From positions 161,857,408 through 161,921,407 of the forward strand of contig NC_035437.2 in assembly GCF_002127325.2 (NCBI RefSeq): 64,000 nt of DNA, in the 5' to 3' direction. Origin of the DNA: Helianthus annuus. Lineage: Eukaryota; Streptophyta; Magnoliopsida; Asterales; Asteraceae. The notes under the pieces are model-generated. The model was not told the DNA's origin and did no database searches. It was given only the letters and a program-made list of their open reading frames with translations. This document shows positions 3,001 to 54,268 of the stretch, in pieces. A program made the position numbers and the translations under genes. How positions within the stretch are numbered: position 1 is the stretch's first letter; each line of letters starts with the position of its first letter.

Positions 3001-3342
3001 TTCCTTTGAGCTATTTCTCTTACGGAACGTATGAAGTATGGATTGTGTCATTGCCATCGTTATCATTGACATAGCTTTCTCTTCACAGTCATAAAACTTT
3101 TTCTGATCGTCAGTAAGCGCCAAGTACGTATCAATCGTCAACGTACGTACTGGAGTAGCTCCACATCCTTTAACGATGCACAACCAGATTTTGATGTCTT
3201 TTGCTCGAACATATCTTTCGAAACGCTCCTTCCACTCAGGAAAATCAAGTTCGTTGATCAACAAAGGAGGTTTGTCGTTACTTCCTACCTCAGCATTGTG
3301 CTTGAGGCTTTGCACCATTGTAGTGAGATTGTTGTTTGCCAT
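34..3342 (-). CDS. gag: Copia-type Gag with two CCHC zinc knuckles and a central coiled coil
   Basis: Capsid/nucleocapsid protein of the retrotransposon, expected to package element RNA in cytoplasmic particles. I start at the first ATG (MANNNL..., about 1,102 aa). The N-terminal ~230 residues resemble the UBN2/DUF4219-type Gag of plant copia elements (PEWKERFERYV..., ELWDSMIQRYEG). A CCHC knuckle (CYNCGIYGHFARDC) lies near residue 400 and a second (CYKCRGKGHLAADC) near residue 890. Between them are an acidic stretch and a heptad-like segment around residues 620-720 consistent with a coiled coil. The C-terminal ~150 residues are basic and rich in Asn, Arg and Gly. The frame is open throughout, so this copy may be fairly young. 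The distance between knuckles (~490 residues) is unusual for copia Gag. Overlapping ORFs in other frames are shadows. Confidence 0.88.
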   Translation of the reverse strand: MANNNLTTMVQSLKHNAEVGSNDKPPLLINELDFPEWKERFERYVRAKDIKIWLCIVKGCGATPVRTLTIDTYLALTDDQKKFYDCEEKAMSMITMAMTQSILHTFRKRNSSKELWDSMIQRYEGNEMYKKRRLERLKTQFVVFKALKNESFDDTVNRFYHLLSELDRSKEGIYTEFEKVEKFLNCLSREWNMYTALIREGVLYEELTLEEVVQKLRGYAWNMEDQASEFEKIQDPQLYKASKPTDKGSNGGVGVALYSENEGPASEHAFISNNVSSSGTTNSNQGMYSSSGAQKSQGTSVNIPKIDASCLKMIEENMSLLASFMTAYENFCLGKLVEPSSLDEDFDQIDQDEMEELDLQLNMALLVRRAKKFLLKTGKKFIGGQTKTRMGVDMSKVKCYNCGIYGHFARDCRKPKMERSDNNSRGNNSRPQNNTSNAASNSSARSSGSENTTSSTNNAMVAQPLQSVTEPYDWGCALEDISGAIVSQAFIAEIVNEEVFEEVVEETSIEELAVVAEVLGEELDSGNVTENESPSIEETVEKPSKTEDGEKGERFEFNISTAEMQQFADAEAKRLEENSVENEACAFMAGIEVKSSSVDKRCARCVEFVTKIDRYALHNTNLIADLEKSRELIAVLSNSDKEHRIKIKALKNDISEFERLVAKGNLRNQELKSELETSQNSVLEKNKIILEKDNQILDLQRKIEKFRDSSEVMNFCINSQRLKESEEEMFGIGYTKVPPPVNHNYTSMPSIDPELANFVPTTPLTVEPQSESESEPDEVTDSDQSKKSGLSKKNEVNLENIENLISNKILEIFNQVQNEKSKPKSRGKNKKALKNVPKTEFVKGEDFTKEEVKIETGSNSQFVNQILKNPTNASSSSTDHEERPKNAAKIRKCYKCRGKGHLAADCPDDRGKSLVDPDQRKPFVDKPQNESVNVEKKNGKNQKVEKTKVIKHEVKPVVKPNVKSQQNQDQEEKPAVNNRGDRSENVPQRHDTREKTPHRRQNHVTFQGVENDKRSGGSNNNYARPHAQNRFVNDRNGSPPRFPNQRPHSDNHPRSFSRHEDAPRFGRNFESPRNQNYTYQNYGSRGYGNSGYTNRSSTPYNP

Positions 3343-3419
3343 TTTAGACAACAACAGTGAACTTCCAAGCAGTGAAGTGAGCTATAGTCAGAGCGTGTAT
3401 CCCGGATCACAGAACCTGA

Positions 3420-11663: not shown

Positions 11664-11720
11664 TCTCTATATATATATAAATGAGAAGTGATTTGGGCTA
11701 GGTGTCATTGAATTTGGGGC
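11664..11720 (+). other. Helitron 5' terminus
   Basis: Starts TCTCTATATATATATAAATG right after an A, followed by gagaagtgatttgggctagg. TC starts and this AT-rich run are expected of a plant Helitron left end. Confidence 0.88.
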
Positions 11721-13366
11721 ATTTTTGCTGATGTGGCAACCTCATTTTTGGTGTTTAGGAGGGAATTAACAAAAGCAATAGCCTTTCTCGATATGAACAA
11801 AATTGGATGCGGGATCCGGATTGTTGTGGTTCGGGTTTTCCATTTCCGAGTTGACCCAATGCATAATTTCGGATCATTTATAAAGTTTTTCATTTTCTTA
11901 TCTCTCATCATACCTACCTCAACTTTACCTTCTTCTCTCAACCTCAAGAACATTCAATCGGTTATCTTCTCACCTTCTTTACGAAAATTACTTCAAGATC
12001 AAAGGTAAAAACGCTAAATTGAATATAAATATTTGTTATATACATTATGAATGAAGATCTGACTTTGATTGTATGTTATTAATTTATATACATAGTTATC
12101 TTTTAAAACATTGTTTCTGCTTCTGTCAACTATGATTTGGTCTGATTCTTGAGGATCCGATCATAAATCTTGAATATGTTTGTTTTCACTTTGTTGTTTA
12201 TGTAGGATTCATATTTATTCTAATGGATTGAACATGCTTAGTGTTGTTAAATAAAAACCTAAATCTAGATCAGATGTTTTGCTTGATTGTTTATGATTGT
12301 TTCTTCTTTCTAAATTAATAATTCCGTCAAAACAATCGGAATACGGAAATTGTCAAGGAACAGATGTTAGATCAAACCACCTAATTTGTTTTTGTATATT
12401 TTTCCGTTATTTTTTTTTTTAATTAACAATAATCTGTGTTAAAAATTATTGAATTTTGGTTTAAATATGATTAAATGTAATTAATTGTCTGTTTATATAA
12501 TTGGTCAATGTTTCTATAATTAATTTCATATTAACATATTATTTACTTCCTTTTGCAGTTATGGTTCCAATCAACTCTTCAACTTCTCTCCAATCTTATT
12601 CCAAGAATACCATCGGTTTCTATAAGTTCAATGAATTTATTAAGTGGATCTACATATATATATGGGTTGACGTTCTTCTATCCATACCATCTATATCTAC
12701 AATTCATTGAATCCATTCCTCAAGTTCACATATCGCTTTACAATCTGTAAGTTTTTTTTTTTAAATTAATTCTTTAGTTTTTATTCATGTGTTATTTGCT
12801 TTTATGTTATGTGTTAAATGTATTTTGATGTTTATTTAACCCTAATTCCCTTTGGAATGTAACATTTTTTAGATTTATCTTTAATTTTTGGTATTTAACG
12901 TTATTTACACTAAACCCTGTATCCGATAGAAATCAATGTCTGTCTTTACTTTTTATATGAGTTGATTTCTAATCAGTTATATTTCATTATGTTTTTTAAT
13001 GATGGGAATGTCATTCCAGATCCTTAATCCCATTAGCATTGATTTTCATGTTGATCTAACGGTGATTTTTGATGCTTACTATTTCGTAAGATTTTGTTTA
13101 TATGATTTTTCAGTCTGATGGACTTTTTAGGCTTATGTTATACATGCGATGATACTTATTGTCATATAAATTTATATTATTTGTTCAGTAATATATATTT
13201 TTTTTCATTTTTAACTTTATCTATATTTGATCATAGTATACTAGGTTTTATTATACTGCGGTAATTTGTTTATAGTAATGTCAATGCAAATCATTTTCTA
13301 AAATAATCTTTAACTACATCTGACGTGCTTTGTTTATGTAACCTTTTATTTCTGTAGGTATTTCAT
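11721..13366 (+). other. Helitron 5' region: likely promoter and untranslated exons
   Basis: No convincing coding frame. Intron-like borders (agatcaaag/gtaaaa at 12005, ttttgcag at 12559, ctgtaag near 12748, ctgtag at 13357) suggest a leader split into non-coding exons before the B3 gene. The 91-codon frame at 11733-12008 shows no recognisable domain. Confidence 0.45.
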
Positions 13367-14876
13367 ATGGCTGAAAGTTCATCAAGGTATGTCATTTTTA
13401 GAATCTGTCTTTTGTTTTAATTTTTTTTATCATGCTAACCTTAACATAAGAGATTTGATTAACATCGTAATCTTTAAATCAGTTTCAGGGGACCCTGCTT
13501 CTGTAGGCACATGAATAAAGCAGACGAGTTTATTATGGTAAATGACAACTTAATAAATATTTTTTTTTATTTTCTCTATCTTCTTATTAAGTACAGTCTT
13601 TTATTATTGTATTGTTTATATTTTTTCCCTATAATAATAAATCAATTTCTTTTTTTTATTAGTGCATTCCAGATGCCGCTGTGTGTAAACTATGGGGTGT
13701 ATATAAATGTCCTACGAATGTTGATATACACACAGAAGATGGCCGAGTATTTAATGTTGGATTAAGCGCTGCTAAAGGAAAAATATTCTTTTTTCATGGT
13801 TGGTCCAAAGTTGTAGAACATTTACGACTAACCATAGGTTGTTTGGTATTATTTAATCCTATAGATTCTACTACCTTTAAGTTAACATATTTTGTTGATG
13901 GGGTTAGTAATAGCACTTTTTGGACGTATCTGCTCCCTACATCATCTCAATTTTATGTAAGATAAGTTATATATAGAGATTTCATACTCTATTGATGTAT
14001 TACTTTAGTTATATGTAATTTACTTTTTGCTGATTATTTTTTATCCTTCCAACAGGTCATTCCTGAATGTATCCTGCCAAAACACTATGATTATTCGTCA
14101 AATGATGTAATCTCTACTGTAGTTACAGAAAACAACACGTTTGACGTTCTCATTGAAACATCTGACGGAAAAGTAGGTTTTTCCGTTGGTATTGATGTAA
14201 TTGTTAGTCAGTTACAGCTGAAGGATGGTTGTTTTCTATTTTTTACAAAATCATTTGGTAATTTTTTCCATTTAAAAGTTTGTGGGAAAAACGGTCTTGA
14301 AATGAATTTTCCGGATTTAGAGGTCGACGAGGTAAGTTACATATTTGTACGCCATTGAATATTTTATGCATGTTTATTTTAATTCAGTTCTATATATTAA
14401 ATTTTCAGACTGACGTTGCACCTATCGATGCTGAAGATGATGTTTATGAAGTATTACCTGGTGGTGTTCGTCATTTTGTTCGTATGGCTGGTGATCGTTA
14501 TTTTGTAAGTTATATAAACTTTATATGTTTCTTTCTAAACACTGTTATTTTGGTTTCATAATTTTAATTAATTTTTTTTTGTACAACAATACAGAGGATT
14601 CCCGATCCTGTTTCACGTATGGCTAGACTTGATGAAGGTTTAAGAGATATCACCGTTAGACTTAATCATCTGGATCCGCCAAAGCAATTTACTCACGGTA
14701 CCAGACGTGAAAGGAAAAGCGATGGATCTGGATGGCGATATGCTTTAACCAGTTGGAAGAAGTTTATGAAAGCTGCTGGAATTAAGGTCCGTGACAGGGT
14801 TCATTATTCTTTTGATGAAAATGACCAGGTTTTGAGTGTTGATCTGGTTTTACCTTACGTTAGGCTTAGTCATTAG
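13367..14876 (+). CDS. B3-domain (REM-like) protein, three B3 modules, Helitron cargo
   Basis: Predicted nuclear DNA-binding protein. Six exons join in frame with GT/AG borders: 13367-13386, 13483-13537, 13663-13956, 14056-14331, 14409-14504, 14595-14876, giving 340 aa without a stop. Exon 3 matches the B3 pattern (VCKLWGVYKC, DGRVFNVGL, GKIFFFHGWSKVVEH, LVLF); exon 4 is a weaker second B3-like module; the last exon holds a third (GWRYALTSWKKFMKAAG...VRDRVHYSF). The last exon starts RIP, matching RLP and RMP starts of the final exons of the two minus-strand B3 genes, so all three are paralogues. B3 proteins are plant transcription-factor-type DNA binders; the role here is unknown (regulation of the element, end binding, or captured host gene). 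ATG chosen because it opens a short first exon typical of the family. Confidence 0.8.
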
Positions 14877-15724
14877 AGATAAAACAATTATGTCATGATT
14901 TTTGGCTTCCATATGTTACTTTTTAAGTTTTTATATGGTTTTTATGGTTATTGACATTTGTTTTGGTTTTCAATTTTATGTTTTTATATTTTTTCATATA
15001 TTAACTGTTATTTTAAACAATCAATTTTGTCATCATTTTCAAAATCTATTGTATATGTTTAACAGTTAATGGTCAATTGTCACAATTAAAAAATCATTGA
15101 CAGATTCTAATGAAGTTAATAATTTATTAAAAAATGAAAGTAAACACACTTTTTTCTTAAACATTCAAATAAATTTAACATTAGTTAAACTAATATTTAT
15201 CCCATTTTTAATGAATATTGTATATCTCTATATACATAAAACTATGATTGTCAGATTTAAACTTGGATTATGCCTTCGAAATGATACAAAATAAGTTTTT
15301 GTCAACTATATTTAACATAAATAACCAATTAGTTATATTTCTTATTATATTATAAATTCAACTTTCAATATATATCTATAGAGATGATACAATACAATAC
15401 AATATAACCTTCATTTTCTTATTATGTATTTTCAAAAAATTTTAAAATCTTATACCGAAATCCAGTGTATATAATTAACATGTATAGTTTCCATTTATGC
15501 AAATTTTCATAAATGTTAATTACCTATATCGATTTATAAATTATTTTGTTTCCTTATTTATTGTATTTTAAAAAAGATGTTTATTTTGATTACATATATT
15601 AATATTATATTTCTAAAAATAATACGTTCTATTGTTTTATATAAATAGATCAATTGTTTTCTGTTTATGGCAAACAATTAGTTTTTCAACACCCTACTTC
15701 TAAACTTATTGCATCTTAGCTACA
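14877..15724. other. Intergenic, AT-rich, no gene seen
   Basis: 3' region of the B3 gene and 5' region of the RPA-like gene. No ORF with coding character. Confidence 0.6.
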
Positions 15725-18390
15725 ATGGAAATCGAAGGTCAGATCACCTTGCTGAACGACATTGATGCTCTTTCCACAAACTACACTATCAAGGTTAAAA
15801 TTGTTAGTTTGTGGAGGAAGAAAATGAGAGCTAACGAAAGAGAGACTTATCGTATAGATATGATACTGATGGATGAGATGGTAAATTTTTGATTTATTCT
15901 TTTTTGTTTTAATTAGACTGAGTTTCATATCCTTTTAAGATATCTTTTGCATGTTTTTATGGATTTTACCTACAGGGTACCAAGATCCAAGCATTTTGCT
16001 TGCATAAGCTATTTTCAAAGTTTGAGAGGCATCTTATTGTTGATGAATGCTTAATCATAAAACGTCCTTCTCTTGCTGCCAACACTACGTTTTTCAAGAT
16101 TGTACCTAACAATCAAAAGTTATCTTTTCACTACCATACGTTGGTGGAGAAGTGCAAAAATTGGGATGGTCCGCAGTATGTTTTCAATTTTGTTGATTTT
16201 AACGATGTTCTGTCACAGAAAATAAAGGAGGGTACCACAGTAGGTATGTATCTTTCGTAATAATTTTTAATTATTTATATACAATAATATTTGTTTTAGG
16301 TATTTTTTATGTTTTTTTTACATATTTATACTTTAATGATGTGCTGTTATGTATTTTTCAATATTTTTTTAGATGTCATTGGTTATGTTTGTGTTTGTTA
16401 TAACATCGAGGATACGAACAAAAAGGATGGTAGCAAAGGGAAACGCCTTAATCTTAAGCTTCAAGATATTGAGTAATAGCACTATTCATAAATTATATGT
16501 TTTATATTATATATTAGGCTTCCAAATTTACAAAATGTTTTTTATCTTATAATTTTTTGTTATAATATTTTGTAGAGATGTTCAGATCGATTTAACTCTT
16601 TGGGATGATTACGCTAAGGACATGTATTCTTACATGGTTAGTGAAAAGCGTGAAGCACATGTTGTCGTTGTTGTCCATTTCGGTGCTGTTAAGACATACA
16701 AAGGTATTTAGTTCAAACCAATTTACTTACCTCATATTACAATTTATTTAGATGTTGATACTTTATATATATTTTATTTAATGATTACTTTTTGCACATT
16801 ACAATAGGAAAATGGGGTTTGTCTAATAACTTTGATGGTTCAAGAATTTTCATTAACGACAACTTTGATGACATGCTATTGTTTAGGCAAAAGTAAGTCA
16901 TATTATAATAAATATTTATTTATTTATTTTTAATGTTGTTATTTATTTATTTTTTGTTTATTGAAGTTTATTTTTATTCAAACTGTTCTATAGGTTTCTT
17001 GCAAAACTTGCTGCTTCAACTGAGTCGAGTAGCCATGCTGGGTCATATATCATGTGTTCTGTCGAAGATGAATTTTTAAAGAACGATGTTTTTTCACCAA
17101 TTGCTTATCTTGGATCAATCCTAGAGGTTCTCATTAACAATTCATATGTTATATTTTAAATTATATGTAAAGTTTAGTCTAATTGTTGTCTTTTGTTATG
17201 TAAACAGCCAAAGAAAGTTGTTGTTGTTGGGACTATCGTTGCAATTGTTTCAGATAAGATGTGGTATTATGATGGGTGCAACTATTGCAAGTCCAAAGTT
17301 GAGCAAAAGTTTGAAACATATGATAAGGATGATGGAACAAGTGATGTTAAAGATGAGAAGTTGTATCAATGTTCTAACAAGGATTGTAATGGTAAAGAAG
17401 TTTTCCCGTTATCCAGGTAAAATGTTTTTTTATTCCTACTTTAACCTATTGTTGTGTTATACAAGACAATGTAGCTTGTATTTTTATATATTCATGAATA
17501 CGTATGTATTAATATATATACCTTTTTAAATATTTAAACTATGTTTTTACGGTTCAAAATACCGGTTCGTGTTCAAGATTCAACTGGTACGGTGACACTT
17601 ACATTGTTTGATCATGAGGCGATGAAGTTTGTTGGTAAAACTGCAAAGGAACTTATAGAAATTCAGGACGAGGTTATTTATATTTATACTTTATTAAAAA
17701 TCAGTTGTAATTAAAATTTTATATATTTTACATAACCACACCGTATATTATGTAATATATAGTTATTGAGGTCGAATGAGAATCCCGGAGAATATCCAGT
17801 TGAGTTTGAATCATTGCTTAACATAAAGTGTGCTTTCGTGATTAAAGTAAGTGACTTTAATATTGTGAATGCTGTCGAGAATTATGGAATCTCAGTTGTT
17901 ACCACTGATGAAGACATATTGGATAAGCTGAACAAAAAATTCAAAATTGACCAAGTAAGCTTACGTTTTCTAAATGTAGATATACATTTACTTTCATAAC
18001 TGTTTAAAATATCTTCAACAAATTTTCTTTTGTTTTCTCATTTTTGTTACAGCTTGATGTATCTGATTCTTTTGGTATGACTCAGTCTGAGTTCCAAGCT
18101 ACCGGTGGTGACAGTTTCAAGGTATTCAATTGGAAATTCACTTTTATGTAATTTTAATGTTGTCTAAGCACTTTTTTTTTAATTTCTTTAAGGATGCGGA
18201 TTCTTACACTGGGGATAACACCACACCTGTGTCGAAGGATTACGTGAGTGACTTGAAGCAACCATCTTCTGATATGAAGCGTAACCTGGATGATGTTTAT
18301 TTGAATGATGAGGGAGTGGGGTCGTCAGCGAGTAAGCCTCGCATGTGTGTTGAGAAGAAGGCTGTTGACGAAGATCTAAGCAACAATTGA
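15725..18390 (+). CDS. RPA70-like single-stranded-DNA-binding protein of the Helitron
   Basis: Eleven exons: 15725-15880, 15976-16243, 16373-16472, 16576-16703, 16808-16892, 16994-17126, 17208-17416, 17552-17672, 17763-17954, 18053-18121, 18193-18390; the sum is divisible by three, giving 552 aa. It resembles the large subunit of replication protein A: consecutive OB folds (YTIKVKIVSLWRKK start; DVQIDLTLWDDYA; GTVTLTLFDHEAM) and a Cys4 zinc ribbon in exon 7 (CNYCKS...CSNKDCNGK) as in DNA-binding domain C. Known in plant Helitrons, where it is thought to coat or protect ssDNA during rolling-circle transfer. The C-terminal tail is acidic/basic with KRNLDDVY and RMCVEKKA, perhaps a nuclear signal. 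Oddity: the predicted start of exon 8 (17552) is preceded by tttttacg, not AG, so the acceptor may be mutated. Confidence 0.85.
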
Positions 18391-19184
18391 TGAAGGGTAT
18401 ATGTCAAAGGGTGTTTTTAATAAGAAACAAATTATTTGTTTTTTCAGTATTGGATTTTTTTTGGTATGCTATGACTAATTTTATGTTTAAAGACATTATC
18501 TGTTTTGCGGTATGCGTTATGACATATTCATGTTTGGTTAAATATTGTTTGATTGTCAATCATGTTTTGTTATATTCGTTTTTTTACTAGAGTACGTTGA
18601 TGACTCTAATTTTTTTAATTTACTCATCCGAAAACATAAACATAACTAAATCAAACTTAAATTTAACCTTTAACATTTATTAATTTTTTGTCATCAATTC
18701 AACATTTACATTTATAAAACTATATATGATATATGATATTTAATATTCCATTACACCTTTAAACTTTTTTTAAGTAATATTTTAAATATGTCAAATTTTT
18801 ATTTTCGTTACATTTCTATACTTATTTATAGAAAATCCAATTTTTAGCATTTTTAATCAATCACCAATAAATGTGAGATTGTTTTTATATTTAATGTCAT
18901 TAATTTTCTTCCATATCATTTTACCAATTTATAGTATTCATTCCATAAATAACTAATAGCGTACTTCTATAAATTCGCAACACTTCATACTCTTTTCACT
19001 AGCATCTCATGGTTTTGTGAATTTTCATTCTCGAGTTCCTTATACGGTTGAAACATTTCGTTAATCACTTTTTATATTTCCATTAATTTTTTAGTTATTT
19101 TGTTAAAAAAATTTTCATTCATGCATTTGTTTTTCATTTTAAACTTTTATGGTTTTTGTTGTAGTACTCTGTGGTGTTAACAAA
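18391..19184. other. Intergenic, AT-rich; probable promoter/5' UTR of Rep/helicase
   Basis: No coding frame recognised between the RPA-like stop and the Rep/helicase ATG; homopolymer T and A runs dominate. Confidence 0.55.
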
Positions 19185-22100
19185 ATGCAGAATACGTTTC
19201 AACAGCTTACTTCATATTCTTCTGAACCTCTACACCCTGGCATCGGTAATAAGTGTACGTGTTTTCATACTTTCTTCTAATATAGAAATTGTTATTCAAC
19301 ATTTTTTTCGAAATATTTTTATATTTTAACAACTACATTTTCCCGCAAAATCCATTCAACAATTATTTGTACTTTTTTTCATTTTTTTTCTTTGTAGCTG
19401 ACGAAGGTAAGTATAGACGTTGGTTAAGAAAAATATATCTTGATTATAAGAAGTCAAAATCAACAGCACTTCCGGCTTATTTTGTTAGAGGTAATTTTTT
19501 TTTTCATTTATATATTCATATATGTTTATAATACATATATTTATATCATTTACAGTTATAAATCTCATTTTTATATAAAATCGATAATACATATAACAGA
19601 TTCTAATAACCAAAACCATTGTCTTTCATACCTCATTTTGGTTTTAATCCAAGAAAACATTAAAATTTAATATTTTATTCTAACATAGTAAATGTTTATT
19701 ATTCGTAACCAACCAGACATAATAATGGAAATGTTGAATCTAAATATGTCTATAATTATAAGTTAAATATTGAGCAAACATACTTATTTAAGGCAACCTA
19801 ATTTATTACATTAGTAAACGAAATAATATCATTGGTTTGTTAATTAACGTGATGTCTAACAAATAATTATTTTAATAAATATACTAAAGAACCATATGTC
19901 AACATTTATTAACTTTTTCTATTTTACTATTTCAGCTGTTCGGGCTAAACATAGGCGGAAGTTAAGAAAACTATACCTTGATAGTAAGAGATCAAGGATT
20001 AGTAGAAATTTGATTTCTAAAAGTGGATGCTCAACCTCTTCATCATCAACACGTTTTATTTTGAACAACAAAGAGAATTTAACTCCCAATTTTTCAATAC
20101 CAACATTTACTACCCAATCATCAACTCTTATACCGACACGTAAGTTAACTTTTAAAATGTAGTTAATGTTATAGAATTAACATTATGGATTTACTTTGTC
20201 AACTGCAATTATGTTATAGTACTTTTTATACTAACTATTTTTATATCGTATTAGGTAATCATTTAGATTCCTTGGTTAACGTAACATCTTCAAATTTTAC
20301 ACCTTCTACAATGAGGAAGGAAGGAAATGTACTACAAGATAAGTATACAACACCCAACCGTACACCCTTTGCAAATATAGAAAACATAACACCAGGTAAT
20401 CATACCCAATAACAAACACTTACTACTTTTTCATTTTTATAATTTTTTTTTTATTTTTATACCAAAAAAATGTCAACAAATAAGTTTCTAAATAATTATT
20501 TTGTGTTATCATGTTTTTTTCATGAATAGGAAATAATTCTAAATCTTCGAGAAACGTACCTTTATCATCGGGGCCAATTTCAAGTAAAAATATGAGGACA
20601 AATGTTTTGCATCATTCTTCAACATCAGGACGACGTATGATGCTGTCAAACAAGGAAAACATTACACCACTGTCGTGTATTACAAACATACGTACGCAAG
20701 TTCCCAGTGTACCATATTGTTCTAATGCTATGTCTTCTTTGACTCCTATATCACACGGTAAATGTTACAATTATATTCTTACATACATTATTATTTGTAG
20801 AATTCATATACTTAACTAACAAGTATTTTTTTCTTTGTTATTTAGATAATATTGCAACCTCATCAACTTTACCATTGAATGACCGCTACTCTTTTAATCC
20901 TCCAATAACAAATAAACGTAACACAAGATGTTCGATATCCGAAACTACCTCACTAAAAAAGATTTCTTCTGGAAAGCGTAGACTTATTCATAAACCAATT
21001 GAAATAGAAGCCATACCAATGGCTCCTCTTGAATCTGATGATGAAAATCATATTCACGAGATTGTTGCAGACGCCACCAAAGGCGTATCCAAAGGTAAGT
21101 TAGTAATGTTAGTCGTATTTTTTTTCTTATTTTAACTCTTCTACAAAATTATTCAGTTTGTGTTTAATGTTCAAATTCGTGTTTAATGTTCAGATTACGT
21201 TGACCATGGTGACCAATCACTTACGTGTGGTTTATGCTTTGCAAAGTTATGGGCTACCGAAGGTGGAAAGGGTCGCATTACACTTCAAAAACAAACATAT
21301 AGCTTATGTTGTGGATATGGTAAGGTTGACTTGCCTGAATATAAAGATTCTCATCCGTCTTATCAGATGCTTTTTTCCTCTTTAGATCAAGAAAGCAAGT
21401 TTTTCTTAAAGAATATAAGACGTTACAATTCTATGTTTTCCTTTACTTCAATGGGAGGAAAAGTCGATACTAAAATAAACAAAGGAAATGCTCCATATGT
21501 TTATAGAATCAGTGGTCAGAATGCACATAGTATGGGTAGTCTTCTTCCTAAGGAGGGTGCCCAGCCAAAATTCTCACAACTTTATATCTATGATACTGAG
21601 AACGAGCTTGCTAATAGAGAGTTGCTATTTGGGTAAGTATCTTTTTTGGTTCTGTTTGTTAATGTTATGTTATAACATGTAATTCTTTTTTTGTTTATTT
21701 TAAACTTTATACTGTAATTAACAATCTATCATTTATTTGCAGTGATTCTACAAGCAAAGCATCTTTAAGGGCAAAGGAACTTGATGCTAAATTTATAAAG
21801 TTTCTTACCAACATGTTAGATTCTACGAATATGCTGGTTAAAACTTACAGAATGGTACGCGACCACCTGCACGAGAATCCTAACGTTTCCCTTAAGCTTA
21901 GGTTAATCTCACAGAGAGATCGTGACGGAAGGACATACAACTTACCTACGTGTTCCGAAGTTGCTGCTTTAATAGTTGATGAACCTAATCTCAAGATAGA
22001 AAGTCGTGATATTATTGTTGAAAAGCGTTCAGGAGTCCTTAAGCGTATTAGCGAGTTACATCCTTCTTACCTTGCTCTCCAGTATCCGATTCTTTTTCCG

Positions 22101-25100
22101 TACGGAGACGATGGCTATAGGATTAATATTCCTCATAGGGAATTTGGTCCTAACACAAAAAAGACAAGACCAACTTGCACTATGAGGGAGTTTTTTGCTT
22201 ATAGAATTCAAGATAGACATAACAAGTTTTCTCTAATTCTTAATGCAAGAAGGTTGTTTCAGCAGTTTTTAGTTGATGCCTACACAATGATTGAAAGTGA
22301 GAGGCTCAACTTCATACGTTTTCAGCAAATCAAACTGAGATCTGACTCACTTAACAGTCTTAAAAATGTTCAAGAGGTTGGTCAGAGTGATTTGAGTCAT
22401 ACCGGACAACCTGTTATATTACCGTCATCGTTTACTGGTGGTTCTCGATACATGATGCAAAACTATTTGGATGCTATGGCGTTATGTCGGAATTATGGGT
22501 ATCCTGATTTCTTTATCACTATCACATGTAATCCGAAATGGCCTGAAATTGTTAGATTTATCGGTGACTCATCAATTAAGCCAGAAGACAGACCTGACAT
22601 ACTTTGTCGATTGTTTAAGATGAAACTCGATGAATTGATAACTGATTTGAAGCAAAAAAAAAATTTTGGTGATATTAATGCAGGTATGTAAATTCGATAT
22701 CCAAATTTAAGTTATTAGTTTTTTTTCTTTGTCATTCCTTTTTATCTACTATATTTAACATATATATATATTTTTTTTGTAGTTGTTTACACAGTTGAGT
22801 TTCAAAAGCGTGGATTGCCACATGCACACATTTGCTTATTTATGAAAGCTGATCATAAGCTTCCTACGGTTGAACACATTGATCCATTTATCTCAGCTGA
22901 AATTCCGGATAAAAACGAGGATCCTGAGTTGTATTATCTTGTGAGTGACTTTATGATTCATGGTCCTTGTGGACATGCCAACAAGAAATGTCCATGCATG
23001 GTTGGGAACCGTTGTTCTAACAATTTTCCAAAGAAGTTTTTGGAATCCACTTCCATTGATTCTGATGGATTTCCCGTTTATAGGAGAAGAGATTCTGGTC
23101 ACACGGTTGTGAAGAAGGGTGTTACTTTGGACAATAGGAGCGTAGTTCCATACAACAAAAAGCTTCTAAAAAGGTATCAGGCGCACATCAACGTCGAGTG
23201 GTGCAATCAGGCGGGTTCAATTAAGTATTTGTTTAAATATATTAATAAAGGACCTGATCGAGCCATGGTAGCTGTTTTTGATTCAGACAGAGGTCCAGAT
23301 GAGGAGATCCCAAAAGATGAAATTAAAGAATATTACGAAGCTAGATATGTTTCCGCATGTGAAGCAAGCTGGAGAATATTTGCCAACGAGGTTCATTATA
23401 GGTATCCTTCTGTCATGAGATTACCTTTTCATCTACCAGGACAACAAAATGTTGTATTTAGTTGTGACGACGATATTGAGGATGTCTTACACAAACCTCA
23501 AGTAAATTCTTCGATTTTCTTAGAATGGATGAAGATGAACAATTCTAAGCCTGAAGCAAGACAACTTACATATGTTCAGTTTCCTTCAAAATATGTGTGG
23601 AAGTTAAAAGATCGTTGCTGGCAGCCACGTCAAAATTATGTTGTTATTGGGAGAATATATTCTGCGTCTCCTTCTCTTGGTGAGGCTTATTATCTAAGAA
23701 TTCTTCTTACCAAGGTTAAAGGACCAAGATCATTTGAAGAAATCAGAACATATGAAGGTGTTGTTTATCCTACTTTTAGGGATGCGTGTTATGCACGTGG
23801 CCTGTTAGATGATGACAATGAATATATCGAGTGTATTAAAGAATCCAGTTTCACTGGTAACGCTCATTATCTTCGTTCTTTGTTTGGAACACTACTTTTG
23901 TCTAATACTCTTTCAAGACCTGAAGTTGTTTGGGAGAAAACGTGGGAGCTAATGTCCGAGGACATTTTATACAATATGCGTAAAGATAGTGGCATGAGCG
24001 GTATGTTTTTTTTTATCCTTTTTGTTATATTTTTTTTATGTTATATGAACAAATTGTTTCGTTATATTAAGTAATTTTTCGTTTTCATTGTAGGATTCGT
24101 TGTATCAGATGAACGTTTAAAGAATATAACATTGACCAAGATCGAAAAATTTCTTCTTCGTAATGGATCCAGCTTGCACAGGTTCTCAACGATGCCTTAT
24201 CCTGATGATGACTATCTAATGACCGAGAGCAACCGTTTGATAAACGAGGAGCTTTCGTTTGACATTGATGAACTTAGGGGTGAGTTCAATAATCTGCACA
24301 GCTCTCTAAACGAAGATCAAAGAGCAGTGTATAATGAAATTATGCATGCTGTTAGAAGTGGAAAGGGGGGTGTGTTTTTTGTGTACGGTTATGGTGGTAC
24401 GGGCAAGACTTTTTTGTGGAAAACTTTAGGTGCATCCATTAGATCCACTGGACAGATTGTTATTAATGTTGCTTCAAGTGGTATTGCATCTTTGTTGCTA
24501 TCACGAGGTCGTACTGCCCATTCACGATTTCATATTCCTATTAATCTCAACGAAGATTCGGTCTGCCATATCAAGCCTAATACTGAAGTACTGAAGTCGC
24601 TAATCTTCTAAACCAAGCCAAGTTGATTATTTGGGATGAGGCACCGATGGTACACAAACATGCTTTTGAGGCTCTTGATCGTACAATAAGGATGTTTTGA
24701 GTGTATTTGATTCACGAAATTCAGAACTTCCATTTGGTGGAAAAGCTATTGTCTTTGGTGGTGACTTTAGACAAATCCTACCGGTTGTACAAAATGGAAG
24801 CAGGCAAGATATTGTAAACGCATCTTTATGTTCATCCCATATCTGGTCCCATTGCAAGGTGTTAAAGTTGACAACAAACATGCGTTTATCGGTAGTATCC
24901 AGTACCTCAAACATCGAGGAAATAAATCAATTTGGTAAATGGCTTTTAGAGATTGGCGAAGGCAATGTTGGTCATTCTAACGATGGTGATTCACATATTG
25001 AATTACCTGATCATCTTTTGATAACTGATGAGAATGATCCGATTCAGGCTTTGATTGACTTTGTATATCCTTCAGTTTTGGATCGTTTTAAAGACCGTCA

Positions 25101-25797
25101 CTACTTTTCTGAAAGAGCTATACTCGCTCCTAAGAATGAAGTTGTTCATGATATAAATGATCGTTTGCTTGAATTGTTTCCGGGTGAAGAGGTAGAGTAT
25201 CTTAGCTCTGATAGTTTATGTCCTACTGAGGATATTAATGATCCGTTACATCAAGATTTATATAATCCAGATGTGTTAAATAGTGTGAAAGTTTCTGGAT
25301 TACCAAATCATAGATTGGTATTGAAATTGGGTGTTCCGGTAATGCTTTTGAGGAATATTGACCAGCAAAACGGTTTGTGCAATGGTACGCGTCTTCAAAT
25401 CACACGTCTTGGTAAACGTGTTATCGAGGCTAAGATATTATCTGGAAGTAATGTCGGTTCAAGAACTTACATCCCAAGAATTAGCATGATACCATCTGAC
25501 AAAAAAATACCCTTCAAGTTTCAACGAAGGCAGTTTCCAATAACCGTATGTTTTGCGATGACTATTAACAAAAGTCAAGGACAATCTCTATCCAGAGTTG
25601 GTCTATACCTTAGAGATCCCGTGTTCTCACATGGTCAGCTTTATGTTGCTTTGTCGAGAGTAAAGACTAAGGATGGCGTTAAGGTTCTAATATTCGACAA
25701 AGATGGGAGACCAACAAACAAAACTGCAAACGTTGTTTACAAAGAAATTTTGGGAAATTGTAGATTAAACTTATGTTACGTACGTGATTTATCCTAA
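19185..25797 (+). pseudogene. Helitron Rep/helicase (HUH nuclease + PIF1-type helicase), two frameshifts
   Basis: Transposase. Ten exons: 19185-19254, 19398-19490, 19936-20139, 20255-20395, 20530-20757, 20846-21094, 21194-21632, 21743-22683, 22783-24000, 24094-25797, with GT/AG borders and compatible phases. The N-terminal exons carry repeated RRxLRKxYLDxK and NKENxTP motifs. Exon 7 has a Cys-rich finger (CGLC...CCGYGK). Exon 9 holds the HUH motif (LPHAHIC, 22815-22835) and the two-tyrosine motif (YLFKYINK, from 23226). Exon 10 has Walker A (GYGGTGKT, 24387-24410), Walker B (IIWDEAP, ~24630), GGDFRQILPV, FAMTINKSQGQS and HGQLYVALSRV. Breaks: an 8-bp tandem copy of ACTGAAGT (24582-24597) and one missing base near 24690; as written, translation stops at 24611 (about 1,366 aa) with Rep and Walker A but no further helicase motifs. 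Intact length would be about 1,760 aa. Confidence 0.93.
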
Positions 25798-26177
25798 CCT
25801 AAATGTTATTGTAATTGTTTTTAATAGTTATTTTTTTATATATATAGATGTTGTCATTTATATATTTTATAATTTTCTGGTTAATAATATAAAATTTTGT
25901 TATTTGTATATAGTTAACCTCATTGTTATATCCCTGTAAGACGATATTTCTATGAATTAAACATTAAACATAACATATAAACAAAAAGTAGAACCCGTGA
26001 ATATTTATAATCACTGTTTCATACTAGAAGTCCATAATAGATAAAGATGTTAACTAGAAACATGTTAACCTACTACAAAACAACTTTTAAGAACAAATAT
26101 GTTACTGTAGCTTCCATCATTACCCAAAATTACCATATATTATGGTCAACAGTTTTTCATACTTTCAAACATCACCT
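25798..26177. other. Tail-to-tail intergenic region
   Basis: 380 bp between the convergent Rep/helicase and the small B3 gene; AT-rich, probably holding both 3' untranslated regions. No further feature seen. Confidence 0.6.
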
Positions 26178-26676
26178 TTAGCGGAACACACCAGCATGGA
26201 ACAAAACACATATACCCGGAAAGTACTGGAACTTGCAATGATCACCTTCTTGGATGTTGTTATCCTTTAGCCATTTCGCCCAGCCTTTCACAACATACTT
26301 GATACTGTTTTTATTTGGCTCCGGCCTAACATCATGTTTTGTCTCCACATTTTGCCTGTTGGCAATCTTAACTTTCAATGTTTCGTCAATTCCTGTGATC
26401 CTTGCTACTTCAACTGGTAAGCGCTATAAGTTAGAAAAAATAACAATAATTTCCATTAATGATGTTGAGATATTTGAAAAAGACCATAGTTAACCAAATT
26501 ATAAAAACATATTTCACATGTTTTAACATTTTCTTTATGTTGGAACTTACAAAGCGTTTCGTGTATGGCACAACAAATATAAGTGGTCCGATATCATCAT
26601 CATCAAAGTCATCTGATTCTGCCGAAGATTCTTCAGAAGCCGATAGCACGACAACATCGTTTTCAGCTCCAGCCAT
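26178..26676 (-). CDS. Small single-B3-domain protein, Helitron cargo
   Basis: Two exons, 26551-26676 and 26178-26423, join in frame to 123 aa with canonical borders. The first exon encodes a Ser/Glu/Asp-rich acidic start (residues ~10-28) ending VPYTKRF; the second starts RLPVEVARITG and contains KYVVKGWAKWLKDNN..EGDHCKFQYF, the C-terminal B3 signature also seen in the last exons of the other two B3 genes. It looks like a shortened relative of the 28521-30517 gene, lacking the first two modules; upstream DNA of the two genes is also similar. B3 domains bind DNA; an isolated B3 with an acidic tail could act as a competitor or cofactor, which is inference. Confidence 0.72.
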
Positions 26677-28520
26677 TCTAACAAACATTTATAAGTTTAA
26701 CCCATTTTTTTAAAAAGGTCAAGTAATACCATATAATCCCATTTATCATTATATTCAAAATCAAAATCAAGTACAAATCTTTGTTATTACATCATATATT
26801 ACCCAATAATATTTTCCTTATTTATAATCTAAATATAAAGCATATAAACAATATTATACAGAATGTCATAAATAACAATACAAATCTATGTCCAAATATG
26901 TGATTTAAGAATACAGTAAATCATACTTTATTCAACAACAAAAACCATTTATTCATCCAAATCAAAATATAAACCAACCAAATCAGTTTCTTCATACGAC
27001 TATCAACATAATATTTCAACCAAATCACACTACAAACCTAACAACCTAAACTTCCAAACACATGGTAAACATGTAATCCCTTTTTAATTTACATAACATA
27101 CTAATTAATTTTTTTAACTTTAAGTAACTGAAATTTTAACATTATCTTACTGATTAATCGTTTTTAGGGTTTGATCGTGTGAGTTATTAGGAATAAGAAA
27201 CACAACTTTAGTTTTGAAATCAGAATAACAATCTGTTTAAAAGTGATCGGATGTAAAATATGAAACTTACCTTTACTAATTTCTTGATCCTCTTTTTGGC
27301 TATTCTTGATTTATGTGAGGAAGATGAAGTAAAAGCTGTTTTAGGTATTATATATATAGAGATTCGGATAGATAATGTAAAAGGTAGAGATATTTTGATT
27401 ATTTTATTCGGTTATTGTATTATACATAACATTTACCTCTATAACTTTATATTGTTTTAGATTTAAAAAATTTAGTATAATAACATTTTACTTAATAGGT
27501 GTATAATTTAAGTTTTGGAGCTGAATTGAAAACATTAATACAATTACACAATTATTTATAACATAAGTTTATTTTTAAAGTCATATTATTTTAGTCACTT
27601 TATAAACTATATGTTGTGTAGATGTAATATTTTAAGTGTGATGGTTGTAACATAGAAGTTATATCTGTACATTTTCATACTATCATATCATATTTGATAT
27701 TTTGACTATTACAACAGATCTGTCATTTAAAAAGATTTCGTACAAAATGAGGTATAATAAACGCACATATGTATTTTTTGTGTTGTAATTTTTATTATAT
27801 ATATTCTATTTATAATGTCAAACTTTACAATTAACATATTATTTATTTTTCCTAAATTATATACATGAAATATCAAAAAATAAGTATATAATTTTATATT
27901 ATGATTTCTACTTTGTTGTTTCTATCCGTTTGTATGATAATACATTTTTAACTAAAACAGTTACACAATACGAGTCTACTGAGATGCCGAATTTATTTAA
28001 ATTGCATTTGAATCCCAAAACATTTAATGTACTACACGGCTTAACGGTTTATAATAATACTTCAAATATACTTCACAAAGACGTATTCTCAATTTTATGG
28101 TTTCATACATGTAATCAATAATTTTATAGTATTAACCAAGTTGATAAGTCTTTTACATATTTATTTTTTTATATATAAATTTTTTTTTAAAATGTAATTT
28201 ACTTTCTTTTGTTAGTTACAAATTATATAAACAATTTGAATGACATATAAATAACCACAACTTAATATATAAATATGCATATGTAAACATTCATAATCCA
28301 CAAGCATTTATAAATGTTACCAACATTACTTACATACTAAAATATGGCATCATATAAGATATAGAACTAAGAGGTTTTAAACTTAAACTACTAATTAAGG
28401 AAAGAAAAAAACTTAAACAGTATTTGCATGTCCCAAAAAAGAAGAAGTCATTTAACAGTTACACAACCATCATCATTTAGTCTGCACAAACATCTGAAGC
28501 ATTCTGTTATCGAAAATGTT
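26677..28520. other. Upstream region of the small B3 gene, AT-rich
   Basis: Probable 5' untranslated exon and promoter (around 27270-27345, by similarity to the upstream region of the larger B3 gene), then about 1.1 kb of AT-rich DNA without coding signal. Short ORFs here have no recognisable content. Confidence 0.5.
26960..27345 (-). repeat. Duplicated B3-gene upstream region, copy 1
   Basis: Shares with 30890-31420 the order aatcagtttctt, atcaacataatatttcaa, cacaactt, aagtgatcgga and a ttacctttactaat splice-donor-like site, then a gagg/gaag-rich stretch. The two copies are diverged but collinear, indicating a segmental duplication of a B3 transcription unit. Confidence 0.6.
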
Positions 28521-30517
28521 TTAACCTGCATGAACTGGATCAACCTTTGATAAGATCAGCAGATTTTGCGAACATACAAAGGTGAAATGCAATGTGTCAC
28601 CGGAATGAAGTCCGTTATCCTTCATGAACATCGGCCAACCTTCGATAGCATACCTAACAGCATCTCCATTCTTCTGCCTCCTAAGATTCATATCTATTGT
28701 TTTTCCTTTCATGTTCATCACTTTTAACTGGTGCACTTTGTTTTTGAATCCTCCAATTCTTACAATATCAGCAGGCATTCTCTGCATGACAAATATAGTT
28801 TTATAATTAATTTATGCTTATTTATATTAGAATATTTATGTTTGTCGTTGAGTATTTTAGAAAATCATACCAATCGTTTATCACCATTTTTTTTGAACTC
28901 ATGAACACCACTATTGTAAGCATCATTTACCCTTGCAACACCTTTTCTTTGCACATCCACTATCTTCAATGCTTTCTCATAACTCTTTGTATTTTCTTTA
29001 ACCTTTTGAAACATTATACAAAATGTATTATTATAGTAATATATACAAAGGTAGCAGTTATACCGCTAAGCCTCATTACTAAATGTTGTTAAGTTAAGTT
29101 ATACGTACCAAGCGGCTGTGTGTTCTCTGTCCAACAGTTGTCACTTCTGGCATTTCCACTTCGGATTCAGATATCATGCTTTTACTGATTTCTTCCTTAC
29201 AACCTTCCACCATCTTTTTTCCTTTGTTTTCAACCTGTTAAAACAATTAATAACGTTAAATAAAAACTGATCAAATAGTTATTAAATATATATAAATGTT
29301 TGTAAATATATTATTATAAGTAGTCATATATTATTTTGTTTAAAACCAATACATATCCTTTTCTTGCTTGGTTATTGTCTTCTATGCTCAAACTCTTTCT
29401 TGCTGCCTTTGACATTTGTTTTCCTTGATTGTTTTTATTCACCTTTTCTTGGTTATCTCCGAGAAGCCTTTCTATTTCCTAAATAATTAAATCCATAAAA
29501 TATTATACTAATTTCAACAAAATCTATACAAATGATTACTTATTACCTTACTAACTATTTCATCTGTTGACTCTTCATCTTCACAGAAATCCTGTTATAA
29601 AATAACATAATGAAATTAATACTATTTACATAATTCTACTCTAAGGTACTTTAAATTACTTACAAACTTAACGTTTTTGTAGTATGTCTCTCTAGGTACT
29701 TCCATCAGAGAGTCGTCTTCACTTTCTTCTTTCTTGGTAAAAATTACCTCAACTCCTCTACGGTAAATTGTCAATTCAAATGTGACGGTGTCCGTTTTCT
29801 TCAACAGCAGTATATCATCTTCTTGTATTGCAAGATCATCAAATAACTTCGGGCAACCTTTTGTAAAAACATAATGATCATTGATTCTGTCCGTGTCAAT
29901 GTTCCAAGTCTGACCTGCTGCAAAGATTTTGTAACAATCTTTGACTGGCGAATAAGTGTAACAGTTTGTTACGTAAGCTTCCGGAAGGACCTGAAAAGTT
30001 TTTAAATATTTTTATTGTTGTATATATATATGTATAGCATTTAATTAAAAAGTTTTTCAAAATAAATTTTAATTTACAACACATGTTAGTAGACTTACTA
30101 CAATCTTTAAGATGTTGTAACGGTTGACTGTCACAAACGATTCACCACAGATGTTGTCGACAAAACAATCTATTTCTATGTTTTTGTCTTCCATTATCCG
30201 CAACCGCAATAACGTCCTCTTAGGCAACTCAAGCTCCCTTATTACATTACTCCACCCGTCAGTTATAACCGATTCACCACTTACACTTCTCAATGAAACT
30301 GGCCAACTTTTTCCAGTTTCATGCTTTATCAATATCTTGGTTCTTTGCCAATAATGTCCATATACGTTCTTCACAAACTCAATTGGAAGCACCTACGGTT
30401 ACATTTATGTTATATATTTTTATTAATAAAAGATATACAGAATTGTTTGTATACATTGTATCATACCAGTTTTAACGATGATTCATCTTCTAAGAAAGCC
30501 ACACATGACGAGCTCAT
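28521..30517 (-). CDS. B3-domain (REM-like) protein, 453 aa, Helitron cargo
   Basis: Eight exons on the minus strand: 30467-30517, 30099-30392, 29664-29990, 29547-29591, 29353-29478, 29109-29234, 28871-29002, 28521-28781; all have length divisible by three and GT/AG borders, giving 453 aa with no stop. Exon 2 is a B3 module (VLPIEFVKNVYG..GESVITDGWSNVIRELEL), exon 3 a second (VLPEAYVTNCYT..FTKGCPKLFDDLAIQEDD), exons 4-7 a charged linker rich in Lys and Glu, and exon 8 a third (RMPADIVRIGG..VRYAIEGWPMFMKDNGLHSGD). Architecture resembles plant REM-type proteins. The open frame through eight exons suggests recent function. Whether it serves the element or is a captured host gene cannot be told from sequence alone. 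Confidence 0.8.
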
Positions 30518-32053
30518 TTTTAAAAACCTGTAATATACAACATATTTCAGAATCATTTACTATTCAACATAAAGTTATACATATTTGTTCATAGCAATAT
30601 AAAAATTAGTTGTTAACTAATATTCAAAAAAAAAAATATATTGAAAACTATGACTTTTTAACTGTTATATCTACAAAATTTAAAGTCATATAATTTTATT
30701 AATATTGTCATTACTTATAATCCACATATAAACAATAGTAAATTAACTGTTTTCACATGATCATATATCAATATAAATGATGAATGATTCATTAGTTTAT
30801 ATTAAACTATACATATATTATAATGATGAGCAAAAATAAAAATACATAACTTTAATAAAATCTTATGTAAATAAGGTTAATAATCATACGATTAACCAAT
30901 AAATCAGATGTAATAAATCATACTATTAACTAATAAATCAGTTTCTTTACAACCAGATAAACTCCTATTTCAACTCTATAAACAATATCAACATAATATT
31001 TCAAACAAAATCATTTAATCATCGGATTCAAACTATAAACCAAGATTGGAGAGTTTTTTTAACAATATCTACACAATGTTTCAACCAAATAACACTATTA
31101 ACCATAAAAGTAAACTTCAAATAACATGCAATTCATATAACCCTTTTAAATATACATCACACACAAAAAAATTTATTTCTTTACAAATAGTTAATCCAAG
31201 ATTTCAACTGTATTTCAGCAGTAATCGGTTCAAACAAACATAATCGTCTTACTTATTTGTAATAATAAACACAACTTCAGATTATATATGAAATTAACAA
31301 TGCTGTAGAAGTGATCGGAGATGTAATCGGAATTTTACCTTTACTAATCCTTCAACCGCCTCTTGTTGTTCTTGAGAGTTGTGAAAGAACTTGATGTGAA
31401 GTGAAGTTGCAGTATAGGGAGAAGTAGGGTGATATGGTATGATTATCAAAGATATTCTAAAAGTTAACTTTTTTTATTTGTATATACGGTTAGTTGATAC
31501 TTAAAATATACATTTTTTTTTCGTTTTATTTTCCTATATTAAATCTAATAATAAAATTAATCCGTAAATCTTAAAGATTTTCATTATTTTTTTGGTAAAT
31601 ATTACGTAATATACGAATAACATTGAATTTATTTATCAATTTATATATCTCAATATATATTTGGAAATACAAATCAGCCGTCTATTTTGAAACAATTGTT
31701 TTACAATTTTATGTGAACTTATTTCTTTTGTCACATTTATGTTTTAGATATTTGGTTTTCATATGTTATAATTTTAATTTGTTATGTTTAATAGTTTTTC
31801 ACAATGTTTAATGGTTTTTATTTTTAAGTTATTACATGTTGTCATATGTTAGATTATTATTACTTTTTGTTTTAGTGTGCAAACTTTATAGATCATTGGT
31901 TTGACTTCCAATGCAGTTTTTTGTTATCATATCCAGTCATATAAAAACTCACAGAATGTATGATTATGTATTCATACACCTTATTAATCATACAATCTTT
32001 CCGTTAATTAATTTAAGTGTATATATTTATTTTATTACAAATATAGATTTCCT
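30518..32053. other. Helitron 3' region: upstream DNA of the large B3 gene
   Basis: AT-rich. 31340-31430 looks like a non-coding first exon (ccttcaaccgcctcttgttg) with a donor-like site. No coding frame of note up to the 3' terminus. Confidence 0.5.
30890..31420 (-). repeat. Duplicated B3-gene upstream region, copy 2
   Basis: Collinear with 26960-27345 (see that entry); lies upstream of the 453-aa B3 gene. Confidence 0.6.
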
Positions 32054-32083
32054 ACCCGTGAGTATTCACGGGTTATAACCTAG
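32054..32083 (+). other. Helitron 3' terminus: hairpin plus CTAG
   Basis: ACCCGTG (32054-32060) pairs with CACGGGT (32067-32073), loop agtatt, then ten bases ending CTAG at 32083, followed by host T. Matches the Helitron terminator structure. Confidence 0.92.
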
Positions 32084-35796: not shown

Positions 35797-36716
35797 TAAT
35801 GTTGTCAAGTGGGAAACTCATCTAACTACTATAATAAAAGAAACCAACTTTTGGACACGTGTCATTCATTGAAAGTATCCTCAAATTTATAATTATCTAA
35901 ATAAATAAATAATAAATTAGTAATAAATCTTATCATACTTTAATAAAATATTATTCTCAAATCTAAATTGTTAATTTAATATATTTTTAAAACAAATACC
36001 TCTCTTGTCTACTTATCTTATATAAAATATATAAATAATAAATTAATATTAAATGTTATCCTAATTTATTAAAAATATAACTTTTTTTATTATTTGGTAT
36101 ACAAAATTATGTTTACTCAGCTCGAGTAAAACGCGAGGTTTTTAAGGATATAATTTTTTTTATGATTTGGTAGATTTTTCAACCCGACTATACACGGATT
36201 TTTTAAAGATACGACGTTTTTAGTATTTAATATACAAAATAACATTTATTTAGGATATATTTTTTTTTATTATTTGGTAGATTTTTCAACCCGATTATAC
36301 ACGGGTTTTTTTAAAGATACAACGTTTTTAGTATTTAATATACAAAATTACATTTATTTAATCTGTGTAATACTCATGGTTTTTAAAGATATAACGTGAT
36401 ATATACGGGGTTTTTAAAGATGTAATTTTTTATTATTTGGTAGATTTATTCAACCCGATTATACACAGATTTTTTTAAAGATACGACGTTTTAGTATTTA
36501 GTATACAAAATTACATTTAATTTGTGTAATACACATGGTTTTTAAAGATATAACTTTTTTATTATTTGATATATAAAATTATATTTATTTAACCCGTACA
36601 ATATACAAGGTTCATAAAGATATAAGTTTTTATTATTTAATATATAAAATTACATTTATTCAACCCGTGTAATACACAAGTTTTTATTATTTAATGTTGT
36701 CAAGTGGGAAACTCAT
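35797..36716. repeat. 25-bp direct repeats flanking the nested Helitron
   Basis: Identical 25-mers at 35797-35821 and 36692-36716 (beginning taatgttgtcaagtggg). Helitrons do not normally make target duplications, so the second copy needs another explanation. Confidence 0.88.
35822..36691 (+). mobile_element. Small non-autonomous Helitron inside the solo LTR
   Basis: Starts with a Helitron-type end containing ACTACTATAATAAAAG and ggacacgtgtcattcattg, the same 5' sequence as the minus-strand copy at 53124-53915. The interior is made of diverged tandem units (aaagatataac..., cccgattatacacggg). Near the right end, acccgtgtaatacaca is a degenerate terminal hairpin; a CTAG end is not preserved. 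The exact ends are uncertain by a few bases. Confidence 0.68.
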
Positions 36717-39567: not shown

Positions 39568-40520
39568 AAAAAACAAAATTTGTGGGCCCCAAGATAATGG
39601 GCCATATGCGGTCATACATACCGAACAAGATTGCCACTAACGAACGAGGTGAGGTGGCATTCATGGTTAGGTTTTTTCTTATTTTATTTAAGGTGGGGCA
39701 AGGCTGTACAAATAACTCATGCATTGATGTTTACTTGAGAAAAAGCTCACTCGATATTGAATCGGTTGTAAAGGAGTTTAGCCGAACTAGATTTGGTTTG
39801 TAAACGAACTAAGTCGCACTTGATTTTGTTTGTGAACGAGATAAGCTCATGCTCGAGTTAGCCCTAGCTCAACTTGATTCGGCTCATTAGCTAATATAAC
39901 CAATCTAAATGTAGTACTTAATTATGTATCTATTGGTATAACACCAACCTTCCTTTAGAAGAGTTAGCAAACAAAAAAAAAACATTTTAGAAGAAACTAG
40001 AGGACTTGGGTTAAAACTATATGCTATCCAACATCACCCATTTGTAAAATCATAAATTTTAATTTATCCCTATAAAAGTTAGTCGCACATGGCTCTACAA
40101 GAGTTAAAAGGGTGCCTTCTCTCTCTACAAGTAAGAAATCTGCGTAAGAAGCCCATTTGAAATTAGACTAAACACAAGTAAGAAATCATATTGAACCAAG
40201 TTGAGGTGACTCGGTTTAAAACCATGTCAAATTTGAGCTCGATATTCAGCTCAGTTTATAAATCCGATAATTCGAGTCAACGTGAGTTGACTTGATTTGT
40301 AACCTGTGTTGGAACTTTAATGTTGTGGGAAATTGTGCGTGTCCCACATTGGTGGAGAAATAAATCTTTTGTTGATTTATAATTAAAATTCTTTACAAAA
40401 ATGTATTCCTGTGTTACAAGTCACACCCATTGGTAGCCTTTCGGGTGTGAAACACCGGACGTGCACGCGCGTCCGGGACAAGGGCGATGGGCATAATGTT
40501 GTGTTTTGATGGCCCACTCT
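39565..40520. other. Non-coding, possible old LTR remnant
   Basis: No gene. From about 40312, tgttggaactttaatgttg followed by gtgtcccacattgg looks like the start of another LTR into which the next element inserted; the sequence resumes after 49124. No matching end identified. Confidence 0.4.
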
Positions 40521-46155: not shown

Positions 46156-46158
46156 ACT

Positions 46159-53915: not shown

Positions 53916-54268
53916 CTAGCGGTAAGACCCGTGTGCAAACACGGGTGGTTTTTAGAAAACCATGCATAACACATTTTATTAAACAACGAGTCACTATACA
54001 TTTATATAATAGAAATAGAAATGATACAATAAAAAACTATAAATACTACAAAGTAATCGTGCGAATGAGTCTTGTTCCTTAACCAAGTTATCGTGTTTCG
54101 ACAAACAGGTAACAATATAAGGGCCATGTTTAACTTCAAAGTCTCGGCTGCTATACCAAACCATTAAACCAACTAATCGTGTGAATGAGTCTTGTTCCTT
54201 AACGAACTAATGTTTTAAAATAGAATTTAAAAAACCAATTCAAACTGCTATACTAAACCAATAAACCG

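Follow-up and report, generated by a model that had tools for sequence, protein, structure and literature searches.

A 20.4-kb sunflower Helitron carrying B3 genes together with RPA and Rep/helicase genes

We analysed a 64,000-nucleotide stretch of the sunflower genome (Helianthus annuus, RefSeq assembly GCF_002127325.2, contig NC_035437.2, positions 161,857,408 to 161,921,407 of the forward strand; hereafter the window, whose own numbering is used throughout), which contains a Helitron with genes for B3-domain proteins as well as for an RPA-like protein and a Rep/helicase (RepHel). Helitrons are defined by a 5' TC, a 3' CTRR, insertion between A and T, and a hairpin situated approximately 10–12 nt from the 3' end (PMC4683698). 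The interval from 11664 to 32083 (20.4 kb) agrees with this definition in its insertion site and both termini, having A at 11663, TC from 11664, CTAG up to 32083 and T at 32084, and it is more AT-rich (29.7% GC) than the flanking DNA on its two sides (34.8% and 34.0% GC). Five genes were modelled inside the interval, namely G1, RPA and RepHel on the plus strand, followed by G4 and G5 on the minus strand (Table 1); G1, G4 and G5 all encode B3 proteins.

Exon joins were chosen by eye at GT/AG boundaries, and all five genes are backed by Pfam matches (B3 cut-off, 30.1 bits). For G1, RPA and G5, the gene models are further supported by full-length database relatives with the same exon joins (98.5% identity to P0001, 99.5% to P0129 and 61% to P0066, respectively). 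At the stop rate of the element, the probability of frames as free of stops as those observed is approximately 2e-11 for G1, 6e-15 for G5 and 1e-4 for G4 (uncorrected for exon choice). Relatives of G4 beyond B3-domain likeness were not seen, with no search made using G4 on its own. In the G4 promoter, GAATCTCTATATATATA (27349–27365, minus strand) is identical over its 17 letters to the element's 5' junction; considered as a possible element end, it was set aside as probably a TATA box. The three RPA domains (DUF223, REPA_OB_2 and Rep_fac-A_C) all score above the Pfam cut-off. RepHel was modelled as 10 exons up to a break in the frame plus a further open reading frame ending at 25797, with a strong match to Helitron_like_N (2.2e-57) and PIF1 matched in two pieces; its TITCNP, HAH and two-tyrosine motifs are those of Rep. 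The RPA gene adjoining RepHel places the element among the plant RPA-type Helitrons.

Table 1. Features of the sunflower Helitron, in window coordinates.
Feature	Position	Strand	Basis
5' terminus of Helitron (TC...), inserted after A	11664..11697	+	end letters, 34-mer unique
G1 upstream untranslated leader stretch, conserved in other copies	12557..12744	+	matches in fetched proteins
G1: B3-domain protein, 340 amino acids, 6 coding exons (13367-13386, 13483-13537, 13663-13956, 14056-14331, 14409-14504, 14595-14876)	13367..14876	+	Pfam B3 (5.7e-11, 42.7 bits)
Possible alternative GT-AG intron, G1 (to residue 312) fused in frame to RPA	14791..15719	+	P0128, P0129
RPA-like single-strand-binding protein, 552 amino acids, 11 exons	15725..18390	+	Pfam DUF223, REPA_OB_2, Rep_fac-A_C
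RepHel: Rep (HUH, two-tyrosine motif) and PIF1-type helicase	19185..25797	+	Pfam, motifs
G4: single-B3 protein, 123 amino acids, 2 coding exons	26178..26676	-	Pfam B3 (9.4e-8, 32.4 bits)
G4 leader region, 70% identical to G5 leader region	26941..27280	-	sequence comparison
G5: three B3 stretches, 453 amino acids, 8 coding exons	28521..30517	-	Pfam B3 (2e-22, 79.5 bits)
G5 leader region, similar to the one before G4	31007..31348	-	sequence comparison
3' terminus: 8-bp hairpin and CTAG separated by 6 nt, followed by T	32054..32083	+	pattern, folding and scan tests

The two termini were assessed separately. The window holds a single occurrence of the 5' 34-mer, against 0.00 expected. A pattern describing the 3' end (up to three mismatches) likewise occurs once, against a mean of 0.01 per shuffle and a match in 1 of 100 shuffles, a result that speaks to uniqueness only, because the pattern was derived from the end itself. 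The 3' hairpin, ACCCGTGA-GTAT-TCACGGGT, folds at -8.8 kcal/mol as single-stranded DNA (z -4.27; equalled in 1 of 200 shuffles), and its 8-bp stem stops 10 nt before the last base, as expected of a Helitron. When the window was scanned without bias for stems of at least 7 bp followed by CTRR and T, the end of the element was the sole plus-strand site in the window, and the plus strands of ten simulated sequences yielded no site in nine cases and one site in the tenth. Two minus-strand sites (53916 and 49891) both lie outside the interval. The initial annotation had placed these termini, the A/T insertion site and five multi-exon genes within a single Helitron: its coordinates proved exact, its hairpin is supported, and the five genes, B3 genes included, were confirmed. 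The same scan found no second Helitron 3' end inside the interval on either strand. When the two flanks were joined and compared with the window by blastn, no repeat was detected across the junction of 11663 with 32084.

Some features of this copy had been overlooked when it was described as a self-contained mobile unit. The helicase frame is broken twice, at approximately 24590 to 24690, with PIF1 spread over different frames, and RPA exon 8 starts at 17552 after a non-AG acceptor; mutation and sequencing error look alike here. An intact RepHel frame, which is expected of an autonomous Helitron, is lacking here. Because of the two helicase breaks and the non-AG acceptor, the copy as read is probably non-autonomous, and "self-contained" is wrong for it unless these are sequencing errors. 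The H. annuus protein P0129 is annotated as complete, with an RPA part 99.5% identical to that of the window over all 552 residues; therefore, less damaged copies probably exist.

Database relatives of the B3 proteins come almost entirely from one genus. All 64 relatives of G1, all 11 of G5, and 117 of the 118 clusters recovered with a profile of the G1 family carry Helianthus names, in a protein search that requires shared 5-residue words, so that distant relatives in other plants may escape it. The closest relative of G1 (P0001, 98.5% identical) is from Helianthus debilis. Among the matches listed for the G1 profile, H. annuus locus tags point to at least 12 chromosome numbers, over several assemblies. 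The Pfam B3 domain was found at E 0.01 in 23 of 27 G1 relatives (set A3) and in all 10 G5 relatives examined (set A4), and two relatives carry "At4g34400-like" names. Co-occurrence of G1-like and G5-like clusters on the same chromosomes appeared suggestive by eye and was discarded, chromosomes being too large for this purpose.

Of the gene order B3-RPA-RepHel-B3-B3, the B3(G1)-RPA part was seen in other Helianthus copies. Ten of the 129 fetched proteins (P0027, P0042, P0047, P0061, P0064, P0077, P0110, P0127, P0128 and P0129) join G1-like and RPA sequence, and their RPA parts are 32–100% identical to that of the window, so the B3-RPA order exists in copies with greatly differing RPAs. We compared divergence at the end of G1 (57 residues) with that at the start of RPA (44–47 residues) in the window and nine of these fusions (P0047 was excluded as its RPA start is missing). 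The two parts diverge together (Mantel r 0.957, p 0.0002), with a p value that overstates the sample because only around four lineages are represented (three rows are identical and five close). The G1 part was the better conserved of the two in 32 of 45 pairs, and over the longer stretches available in P0077 identity was 65% of 255 residues for G1 and 36% of 388 for RPA. On the evidence of these proteins, G1 is not a one-off capture. Similarity extends upstream of the coding exons: the leader stretch 12501–12900 is matched by 18 of the 129 fetched proteins (at 12524–12744 among the matches listed), and the left flank by none. The window itself permits an in-frame GT-AG splice from 14790 to 15720, and P0128 and P0129 carry that junction in their annotation; the G1-RPA fusion may reflect a habit of gene prediction only, or it may be a genuine B3-RPA isoform.

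Profiles of G1 and G5 are collinear over three domains (first with first, 3e-10; second with second, 6e-9; third with third, 2e-11; whole length, 1.1e-21), and the exon for the first B3 domain is 294 nt in both genes, between phase-0 introns. G4 has the last domain only, and the leader regions of G4 and G5 are 70% identical over 353 columns. The simplest reading of these similarities would be one founding B3 gene that was copied within the element. In a fold search with a structure model of G1, domain 1 was closest to At1g16640 and VRN1 and was the sole domain clearly of B3 type by fold, domains 2 and 3 having been assigned through profile matches to G5. Solved structures were matched weakly by sequence, the best being At1g16640 (E 0.15 for G1 and E 0.027 for G5). 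B3-like domains of restriction enzymes appeared lower in the G1 fold lists, a likeness we take to be one of fold only. The nearest folds, together with the two "At4g34400-like" names, suggest tentatively that G1 and G5 may be REM-like.

Among known elements, the closest comparison is with plant RPA-encoding Helitrons such as the sister family of rice Mothra (PMC4683698), which likewise have TC and CTRR ends, a 3' hairpin, A/T insertion and RPA beside RepHel. The rice elements measure 8,064–15,513 bp and B3 goes unmentioned in the sections compared, whereas the sunflower element is 20.4 kb long and has three B3 genes. "Giant", as the element was initially called, is thus apt beside the rice RPA and RepHel elements and less so beside maize Helitrons, which reach 39 kb with captured fragments (review, PMC6431247). 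Gene-capturing maize Helitrons are similarly large and hold host-like genes; however, they contain gene fragments, while the sunflower element holds whole multi-exon genes, one of which recurs beside RPA in diverged copies. VANDAL/MULE elements, whose VANC protein counters silencing (PMC5735166), are likewise DNA transposons encoding their own sequence-specific DNA-binding protein, but they belong to another transposon class and VANC targets are clustered, and a k-mer count that would miss degenerate motifs revealed no such clusters in the sunflower element; we liken B3 to VANC by role only. Gene capture, VANC included, has been reviewed (PMC13317346), and a maize haplotype with an insertion containing a RAV-like B3 gene has been described (PMC1657028), which we do not use as a case of carriage by a Helitron; PMC10881582 proved unrelated.

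The B3 proteins themselves find a counterpart in Arabidopsis REM-type factors (VDD, VAL, REM12 and REM13; PMC12270911), which also have B3 domains at both protein ends, and are predicted by AlphaFold3 to dimerise by the first and read DNA by the last. These factors recruit Pol IV through GDE1 and determine where small-RNA silencing acts in female reproductive tissue. In contrast to them, G1 is encoded by a transposon and its closest relatives were found in Helianthus only, although its first domain folds like At1g16640 and VRN1. The words "transpos" and "Helitron" are absent, by a text word search, from two papers on REM expansion (PMC10949715 and PMC2688026). Helitron-encoded B3 proteins were not reported among the literature matches listed, which comprised titles and abstract openings, with subscription papers and Repbase outside that scope. 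The element is best read as belonging to a B3-equipped lineage of the known RPA-type Helitrons of plants.

By extension from the Helitron family, Rep would nick the TC end, the helicase would peel off one strand, RPA would coat and protect the peeled strand, and the hairpin would terminate the process; a damaged copy such as this one would require RepHel in trans. More tentatively, a REM-like B3 gene may have entered the element once and then duplicated inside it, and the B3 proteins may bind the promoters or ends of the element. They could then drive the genes of the element in reproductive tissue, or keep silencing, or the host REM-GDE1 system, off it. By analogy with REM factors and VANC, we infer that the B3 proteins may be regulators of the element, and favour self-regulation. 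A bolder version, which we regard as doubtful, is of a Helitron lineage whose own REM-like B3 regulators would act against or through REM-GDE1-Pol IV silencing, with an alternative in-frame B3-RPA fusion that would anchor the single-strand-binding protein on the element's own DNA.

Taken as a whole, the locus is best explained as a copy belonging to a Helianthus lineage of plant RPA-type Helitrons in which genes for B3 DNA-binding proteins are long-term residents (probability approximately 0.68). Several observations weigh against this explanation. The fusion proteins are gene predictions from around four independent lineages, and recurrence elsewhere covers G1 and RPA only, being known from database proteins and not from the DNA of other copies. 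RepHel was matched by none of the 129 fetched proteins, in a search whose length limits would mostly exclude such long fusions. P0041 and P0126 join another B3 gene upstream of the G1-like gene, an arrangement absent from the window, so the number and order of B3 genes vary among lineages. P0071, alone of the 129, also matches the right flank at 50442–50558; we read it as a chimeric prediction. The structure model of G5 was poor (mean pLDDT 46.9) and was excluded from the fold search. The case for a regulatory role proceeds wholly by analogy, and no 8- to 12-mer was over-represented in the element, a count that degenerate motifs would escape and from which VANC targets differ.

Against long-term residence, it could be argued that an ordinary RPA/RepHel Helitron took up host REM-type B3 genes by chance, with no use to the element. 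Helitrons often take up host sequence (PMC6431247), B3 is a large host family, and three of the five genes here are of that one family. Captures are mostly fragments, however, and capture of a full-length gene is exceptionally rare (same review), whereas all three B3 frames of the sunflower element are open and G1 adjoins RPA in approximately four diverged lineages, with its part the more conserved in most pairs; we consider chance uptake unlikely. Since recurrence has been demonstrated for G1-RPA alone, and G4 and G5 are oriented against the other genes and have similar leaders of their own, the Helitron might instead consist of the G1-RPA-RepHel 5' half, with G4 and G5 as a subsequent insertion or as another element sharing the 3' end. 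Such a composite seems distinctly improbable, given the lack of a second Helitron 3' end in the interval and the finding that none of the 25 longest of 177 inverted-repeat pairs in the window falls there; in addition, G5 shares both the three-domain order of G1 and its Helianthus-only matches. The names of many relatives, which databases list as host transcription factors, would also suit a host B3 gene cluster enclosed when a Helitron end was bypassed, its genes still serving the plant. This is very improbable indeed: 118 clusters, tags on at least 12 chromosome numbers and 10 of 129 proteins joined to RPA are unlike one host locus.

Other repeats and mobile-element sequences are present elsewhere in the window. 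The minus-strand site at 53916 is a second Helitron-like 3' end, with hairpin ACCCGTGT-TTGC-ACACGGGT, 7 nt and CTAG, and its element would lie to the right; the site at 49891 (minus strand) is a further hairpin with CTAG, of different sequence. Arrays at 36083–36702 and 53130–53690 contain hairpin units resembling Helitron 3' ends, are inverted relative to each other (blocks up to 94% complementary), and bracket the region from 36 to 53 kb. Direct duplications were found at 40519–43423 and 46157–49070 (97–100% identical among the blocks listed, spaced by approximately 5.65 kb) and at 57458–58058 and 63305–63904 (100% over two adjacent 300-nt blocks, spaced by approximately 5.85 kb). An open frame at 49911–50651 has a Plant_tran transposon domain and includes the stretch matched by the N-terminus of P0071, and a 1115-amino-acid open frame at 34–3381 (minus strand) encodes a copia-type gag with zinc knuckles.

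At least one B3 gene seems to have long travelled with the Helitron, a hint that the element encodes its own regulators. Many of the 118 clusters, to which sunflower annotation often gives the host name "transcription factor B3-Domain family", may be transposon genes. If the B3 genes do belong to the element, Helitrons would join the DNA transposons that have their own sequence-specific regulators. Given that REM-type B3 proteins place silencing, a transposon carrying B3 genes would make it directly testable how a Helitron meets or evades silencing.

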